DNA of 64,000 bases from Aestuariivivens marinum (lineage in GTDB: Bacteria; Bacteroidota; Bacteroidia; Flavobacteriales; Flavobacteriaceae), in the NCBI RefSeq assembly GCF_022662175.1, contig NZ_JAKMCR010000001.1:992001-1056000 (forward strand), read 5' to 3'. Positions 34,110 to 55,686 of this stretch are shown in pieces. Every line of letters starts with the position of its first letter. Within the stretch, counting starts at the first letter, position 1. The position numbers were made by a program, and so were the translations under genes. Under the pieces are notes generated by a model, which saw only the letters and a program-made list of their open reading frames with translations, did not search any database and had not been told where the DNA came from.

Positions 34110-34197
34110 AACAATAGTTAAGCAATCACATTTTTTTATTAATTTTAAAAAAATGCAAAGCAAATGACTAATTTTGCTTTTTAAAATAAAGAAAACC

Positions 34198-34653
34198 ATG
34201 TCAGGAACATTGAATAAAGTAATGCTAATAGGGCATTTAGGGGATGAGGTAAAAATGCATTATTTTGAAGGCGGAGGTTGTGTAGGGCGTTTTCCATTGG
34301 CTACCAACGAAACCTATACAAATAAGCAAACCAATGAACGGGTTACCAGTACAGAATGGCATAATATAGTAGTGCGAAATAAAGGTGCTGAAATTTGTGA
34401 AAAGTATTTAAGTAAAGGAGATAAGGTTTATATTGAAGGCCGTTTAAAAACAAGAAAATGGCAGGATGAAAAAGGGAATGACAGGTATTCTACCGAAATA
34501 CAGTGTACCGATTTCACCTTTTTAACAACCAAAGCCGAAAGTGAGGTTAATGCAAATTCAAATAATAATCAAAATGCGCAGCCAAAAGAAAATACTTTTC
34601 CTGAACCTAGTATTGAACCAATTGGTGATGAAGATGATGATCTACCTTTTTAA
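34198..34653 (+). CDS. ssb: Single-stranded DNA-binding protein
   Basis: Protects ssDNA and recruits repair and replication proteins. From the ATG at 34198 (MSGTLNKVMLIGHLGDEVKM) it is 151 residues; an earlier in-frame ATG at 34174 adds eight residues foreign to the family and lies at the probable promoter box TAATTTTG (34169-34176). The OB fold ends near residue 107, a Gln/Asn-rich linker follows, and the acidic tip reads DEDDDLPF, the standard partner-binding tail. Confidence 0.96.
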   Translation: MSGTLNKVMLIGHLGDEVKMHYFEGGGCVGRFPLATNETYTNKQTNERVTSTEWHNIVVRNKGAEICEKYLSKGDKVYIEGRLKTRKWQDEKGNDRYSTEIQCTDFTFLTTKAESEVNANSNNNQNAQPKENTFPEPSIEPIGDEDDDLPF

Positions 34654-55308: not shown

Positions 55309-55686
55309 ATGGAAGTTCAAGGAAGAATTAAAATGATTGGCGAGACCCAAACGTTTGGTGCTAATGGATTTAGAAAAAGGGAAATAGTAGTAACTACTGA
55401 AGAGCAGTACCCTCAGCATATTTTGGTGGAGTTTGTGCAGGACAAAACGGATTTGTTAAGCAACTATCAAGTTGGGCAACAGGTAAGAATCAATATTAAT
55501 TTACGTGGCAGGGAATGGGTGAACCCACAAGGGGAAACCAAATATTTTAATTCCATTCAAGGATGGCGTATAGAAGCTTTGCAGCAAGAATCAATGGGGG
55601 ATAATTTACCGCCCGTACCACCGGCAGATGCCTTTGAACCTGCTGAAGATTTAAACGATGACGACCATGATGATCTACCTTTTTAA
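55309..55686 (+). CDS. DUF3127 OB-fold-like protein with SSB-type acidic tail
   Basis: A 125-residue protein: MEVQGRIKMIGETQTFGANG, FRKREIVVTTEEQYPQHILV, QVRININLRGREWVNPQGET, then FNSIQGWRIE. The strands fit an OB-like fold. A Pro/Ala/Glu linker (about 95-112) leads to DDHDDLPF, near-identical to the SSB tail DEDDDLPF at 34.6 kb; the last 18 bases are identical. It could bind single strands and use the SSB partner-binding tip. It follows the flavin reductase gene by 33 bases. Confidence 0.85.
   Translation: MEVQGRIKMIGETQTFGANGFRKREIVVTTEEQYPQHILVEFVQDKTDLLSNYQVGQQVRININLRGREWVNPQGETKYFNSIQGWRIEALQQESMGDNLPPVPPADAFEPAEDLNDDDHDDLPF

Follow-up and report, generated by a model that had tools for sequence, protein, structure and literature searches.

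The window analysed here, a 64,000-nucleotide stretch of the Aestuariivivens marinum genome, carries at positions 55309 to 55686 (+ strand) an ATG-initiated gene for a 125-residue member of the family DUF3127 (PF11325), a putative SSB-like protein with a docking tip that also matches the phage family PHROG 4932. The PF11325 match (E = 3.2e-30; 104.6 bits) lies well over the gathering score of 27; weak Pfam matches to DUF3221 and IF3_C fall below cut-off. A genome search finds no DUF3127 gene other than this one. The protein divides into an OB-fold domain (residues 1-91; 55309-55581, + strand), a proline-rich acidic linker that varies across the family, is modeled with low confidence (block pLDDT 55-65) and is probably disordered (residues 92-116; 55582-55656, + strand), and an SSB-type C-terminal docking tip, DDDHDDLPF (55657-55683, + strand), the translation ending NDDDHDDLPF. 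Near the gene, the 80 named Flavobacteriaceae loci show a histidine kinase (80/80), a flavin-reductase-like protein (72/80) and Aat (78/80), which are found at 9, 18 and 18 of the remaining loci, respectively. No gene is common to the DUF3127 neighborhoods at ten chromosomal loci from other families, and the cellular gene neighborhood, having no conserved DNA-repair member, was dropped as a functional clue.

A tailed SSB lies in the same window at 34198-34653 (+ strand; PF00436 E = 9.3e-31; TIGR00621 139 bits), with its likely ATG start at 34198 in an ORF that extends from a TTG at 34174, its tip DEDDDLPF encoded at 34627-34650 (+ strand), and flanking ORFs that we take to be MutY-like and GldE-like. 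It is one of two PF00436 SSBs in the genome; the other, at C5:501036, is tailless, ends ELLMLGK, and adjoins a zinc-ribbon-like protein that recurs beside the tailless SSB in several other families. A sequence-only reading of the window had remarked that the DUF3127 end, DDHDDLPF, mirrors the SSB tip, as both ORFs do read, and that the last 18 bases of the two genes are the same. The identity in fact covers the final 20 nt, stop codon included (55667-55686, + strand), and a 21-nt tail pattern, with at most 3 mismatches tolerated, has two occurrences in the window and none in 100 shuffles. Not one of 22 other genomes matches all 18 final bases (common suffix 0-15 nt). The DNA identity is peculiar to this genome, and the real signal is the protein tip.

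PF11325 is present in 218 of 392 Bacteroidota genomes and in 87 of 179 genera; DUF3127 is not universal, since the other 174 genomes give no match. Tips were counted in a non-random sample made up of the 30 best-scoring genomes, two chosen sets of 30 and 22, and 24 genomes fetched for missing genera. The survey loci contain 112 DUF3127 ORFs, from which five fragment or duplicate rows (L191 and L196, two each, and L192) and six paralogues (L193, L194, L195, L197, L199, L200) were removed to leave 101. Some of the rows removed describe unusual genomes: G077, where the assembly divides DUF3127 over two reading frames (L191/L196), and G373, where three short, tailless paralogues of 102-105 residues (L197, L199, L200) accompany a tailed copy.

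The survey of C-termini proposed by the sequence-only reading finds the tail conserved in the family: 96 of the 101 genes end in [LIVM]PF, three in some other xPF, and two without Pro-Phe, while every one of 80 named close relatives ends in DDLPF. Counted back from the end, the last five positions are F (0.98), P (0.98), L (0.78), D (0.83) and D (0.80), and in the linker, 13-25 residues before the C-terminus, no single residue exceeds 0.35 (n = 101 for both). From these end counts and frequencies it follows that the tip is kept while the linker drifts. The two genes without Pro-Phe come from genomes of a single family (f13) and end in acidic residues; the SSB of these genomes retains DDDLPF. 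The third-last residue was tallied by eye in 23 of 26 genomes, taking the first tailed SSB where there are two and leaving out G001 and G006 (no DUF3127 tip) and G012 (no SSB tip). Where DUF3127 has a residue other than Leu there (8 genomes), SSB does so too in 5, versus 0 of 15 where DUF3127 keeps Leu, a co-drift that is only suggestive, as the Fisher test (p = 0.0017) takes genomes as independent of kinship.

The OB-like fold proposed from the sequence alone is borne out by a high-confidence prediction that, among solved structures, lies closest to SSBs and PriB. An AlphaFold2 model built from a 62-sequence alignment has a pLDDT of 85.8 overall and 92-97 over residues 1-90, the tail being of low confidence. 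Foldseek returns 131 matches to this model at E <= 0.001, and among the matches listed, 50 of 50 are SSBs. VIA-align places the Salinibacter ruber SSB first (5odn; Z 11.9, rmsd 2.8 over 90 residues), with the PriB structures 1woc (Z 11.5) and 1txy (Z 11.1) so close behind that SSBs and PriBs are tied within 1. A family profile searched against PDB matches 22 sequences (best E = 1.2e-9), and since all are SSBs, the sequence search turned up no structure of DUF3127 itself. Compared by hhalign with 30 Bacteroidota SSBs, DUF3127 matches at 97.4% (E = 1.6e-11), a score to which the tip may contribute in part. The protein does not reach the PF00436 cut-off (14.5 vs. 26 bits), no NCBIfam SSB model scores above cut-off, and TIGR00621 is absent at E <= 1; membership in the PF00436 family itself is ruled out by these Pfam and NCBIfam scores. 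We regard the domain as a confidently predicted OB fold of the SSB type.

An OB fold does not by itself imply ssDNA binding, since OB folds serve many ligands. In E. coli SSB, the aromatic residues W40, W54, F60 and W88 stack on ssDNA. Columns 21, 34, 70, 79, 80 and 86 of the DUF3127 alignment hold an aromatic residue in 55-62 of the 62 sequences; these include W70, aligned with W88 (57 aromatic), and Y34, near W54 (59), and F42, aligned with F60, is aromatic in just 11. The median net charge of the OB domain is 0.

PHROG 4932, "single strand DNA binding protein," aligns to residues 1-125 over positions 1-117 of its 117-position profile (E = 4.3e-46), and PHROG 44 bears the same name. Relatives of DUF3127 occur in 116 phage records, and both RefSeq and PHROGs use this name, RefSeq applying it to phages of Flavobacterium, Cellulophaga, Nonlabens and Tenacibaculum. 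It is a computed name for the phage proteins, and the chromosomal family is still DUF3127 in Pfam. The one open-licence paper found to name DUF3127 places it inside the SSB of Pantoea phage AAS23 (PMC8004638). On 80 viral contigs the homologue ends in [LIVM]PF in 70 cases, in another xPF in one and in neither in eight, with one end open. A replication or recombination gene from our own query set lies within 4 kb of the viral homologue at 47 of the 80 loci; four non-replication control queries drawn from the same phages give no matches near it. In five of six phage stretches the neighbors include, variously, Erf with a YqaJ exonuclease, RecT, NinG, a helicase with a primase, and a RusA resolvase with a replication initiator; in the sixth, sparsely annotated, nothing of this kind lies close by apart from a putative polymerase III epsilon chain. 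Recombination genes accompany the phage copies no less often than helicases do. The reading's suggestion of a second, putative ssDNA-binding protein thus finds good support in sequence and predicted structure, because the tail is conserved, the OB fold is predicted to be SSB-like, and the phage homologues are catalogued as SSBs and adjoin ssDNA-annealing, exonuclease, helicase or primase genes. DUF3127 may or may not be a competitor of SSB, the alternative that the reading offered.

One family (f2) in the same order as A. marinum, which we guess to be Weeksellaceae, shows a distinct arrangement. Searched with a Bacteroidota SSB profile, its eight genomes from three genera all have a main SSB that is tailless (L406-L413), ending LLLGGK or a close variant. 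A representative (L406) is identical to the tailless SSB of A. marinum at 68 of 107 positions versus 47 of 107 for the tailed one, so on sequence the f2 main SSB is the counterpart of the former; a zinc-ribbon-like neighbor adjoins it at five of the eight loci. The profile search finds no tailed SSB in six of the eight genomes, where an assembly gap could hide one, and a distant tailed SSB-like protein in the other two (G095 and G277). In five genomes this search even reached DUF3127 itself by way of the tail, a measure of its sensitivity. The DUF3127 tips read in six of the eight (G012, G281, G325, G308, G095, G277) are all DDDLPF. In the six genomes with no tailed SSB found, DUF3127, its tip read in four, is the only SSB-like candidate tip carrier found, and in f2 it may be the tip's main carrier. 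With a tipless main SSB, DUF3127 would there supply most or all of the docking borne by OB-fold proteins.

What is observed for DUF3127 is a gene, a predicted fold, homology to SSB, a conserved tip, a phage context and the tailless SSB of f2; its ssDNA binding, its partner docking and its pathway are what we infer. DUF3127 is probably an accessory ssDNA-binding protein bearing SSB's docking tip, a second, diverged type of SSB found in Bacteroidota and their phages. Its short OB-fold domain would most likely bind ssDNA, with a flexible acidic, proline-rich linker leading to the tip, whose terminal Pro-Phe probably enters the pockets of SSB-interacting enzymes such as PriA, RecO, RecQ and RecG. 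As the tip equals that of SSB, the same partners would therefore reach ssDNA by way of DUF3127, which could act as an accessory hub when DNA is recombined or repaired or a fork is restarted. In a typical tip-binding site, the terminal Phe enters a hydrophobic pocket, its carboxylate meets a basic lip, and the Asp residues lie along a basic ridge (PMC10164576); the DDLPF end of DUF3127 would offer one group apiece to pocket, lip and ridge. An artificial chimera of PriB with an SSB tail is reported to bind ssDNA more tightly than PriB and to stimulate PriA 22-fold, compared with 15-fold for PriB and 4-fold for SSB (PMC8509808). DUF3127 resembles a naturally occurring version of this design, and PriA is present in the A. 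marinum genome. The accessory hub is favored because the tip would fit the docking sites, the design resembles the PriB-tail chimera, and PriA is at hand.

The main rival to such a hub is a PriB-like restart factor, an offshoot of SSB that serves mainly in PriA-directed reloading of DnaB and keeps the tip to hold PriA. PriB structures score like SSBs against our model, the genome encodes PriA, its own DnaB carries a related tip, and the chimera outdoes PriB on ssDNA and both PriB and SSB on PriA (PMC8509808). PriB itself is described there without a tip, however; no conserved neighborhood ties the DUF3127 gene to the primosome, and helicases are no commoner than recombination genes around the phage copies. 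This reading is possible and rather unlikely. Less likely by a good way is a decoy or regulator, whose OB domain would take protein or RNA in place of ssDNA and whose tip would vie with SSB for partners. The range of ligands served by OB folds in general, the neutral net charge, and the mostly non-aromatic column equivalent to F60 (aromatic in 11/62) would suit it, but all of the closest structures and profiles belong to SSBs that bind ssDNA or to PriB, aromatic residues persist in six other columns, and phage copies occur within replication and recombination blocks. That the tip arose by chance or by gene conversion from SSB in the same genome, as the 20 identical final bases might hint, is hardly credible, since the survey refutes it, with the tip phylum-wide in 96 of 101 genes in different codons and the 18-base identity in 0 of 22 other genomes.

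The tip may reach beyond the OB-fold proteins. The pattern [DE][FLIMV]PF-stop has 30 matches in the whole-genome DNA of A. marinum (19 for the reversed pattern), and only three end in-frame ORFs of more than 100 residues: SSB, DUF3127 and a DnaB-type replicative helicase. This 505-residue helicase, encoded outside the window (C8, near 224655), ends DEEDEVPF. A genome of another family (G275) gives 19 matches, which yield SSB, DUF3127, DnaB and two further ORFs, one thioesterase-like and one of doubtful coding status; an additional long frame reads through a TGG and hence has no true end. Read by eye, the best DnaB in each of 30 chosen Bacteroidota genomes is Phe-terminal in all 30 and ends in Pro-Phe in 22. 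Five of the 30 genomes have no DUF3127, and the SSB-like DnaB tip occurs there too. The DnaB of E. coli ends GPQYDDE and has no such tip. Bacteriophage T7 offers a precedent by analogy for the DnaB tip as a helicase tail: the acidic C-terminal tails of its helicase, gp4, dock on T7 polymerase (PMC12593628), and the C-terminal Phe of its SSB, gp2.5, is called essential in the title of a paper cited by PMC9917605.

We tentatively propose a fork docking code in Bacteroidota, a reading that is possible but less than evenly likely. One type of tip, acidic residues followed by x-Pro-Phe, would let three replication proteins, SSB, DUF3127 and DnaB, engage the same pockets; in f2 the housekeeping SSB would have shed its tip and the hub would have moved to DUF3127 (plus DnaB). 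If true, f2 would be a case in which nature has parted the coating of ssDNA from the recruiting of partners. The tip is usually regarded as a docking handle that belongs to SSB; another tip bearer across the phylum, together with a like-tipped helicase, would alter the view of partner recruitment in Bacteroidota, a major phylum of gut and marine environments. Family f2, with its main SSB tailless and the tip on another protein, provides a natural test, and a domain of unknown function, DUF3127, gains a testable one. Among the open-licence papers listed by our searches we found no report of an SSB-like tip on Bacteroidota DnaB, nor of a tailless SSB in Chryseobacterium or of Bacteroidetes SSB paralogues. 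A study of the Flavobacterium psychrophilum SSB (PMC3991886) mentions an additional gene that resembles the ssDNA-binding domain and has a product of unknown function; this gene may or may not be DUF3127.

Several known systems invite comparison with DUF3127. T7 gp2.5 and gp4 resemble the SSB and DnaB described here in that the SSB and helicase of one replisome both have acidic tails, but the tail sequences are unrelated, and the parallel holds for SSB and DnaB rather than for DUF3127. SsbB-type tailless paralogues, including the tailless SSB of A. marinum, are likewise second OB-fold ssDNA-binding proteins beside a main SSB; unlike DUF3127, they lack the tip. PriB (primosomal replication protein N) shares an SSB-derived OB fold and a similar structural score, whereas DUF3127 has a linker and tip that PriB does not. 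Bacterial SSBs (PF00436, TIGR00621; e.g. 5odn of Salinibacter ruber) have the same plan of OB fold, disordered linker and acidic Pro-Phe tip; DUF3127, in contrast, is shorter, has diverged so far that it falls under the Pfam and NCBIfam cut-offs, and is accompanied by a PF00436 SSB in each of the 26 genomes searched for both. The phage SSBs of PHROG 4932 match DUF3127 over its full length, tail included.
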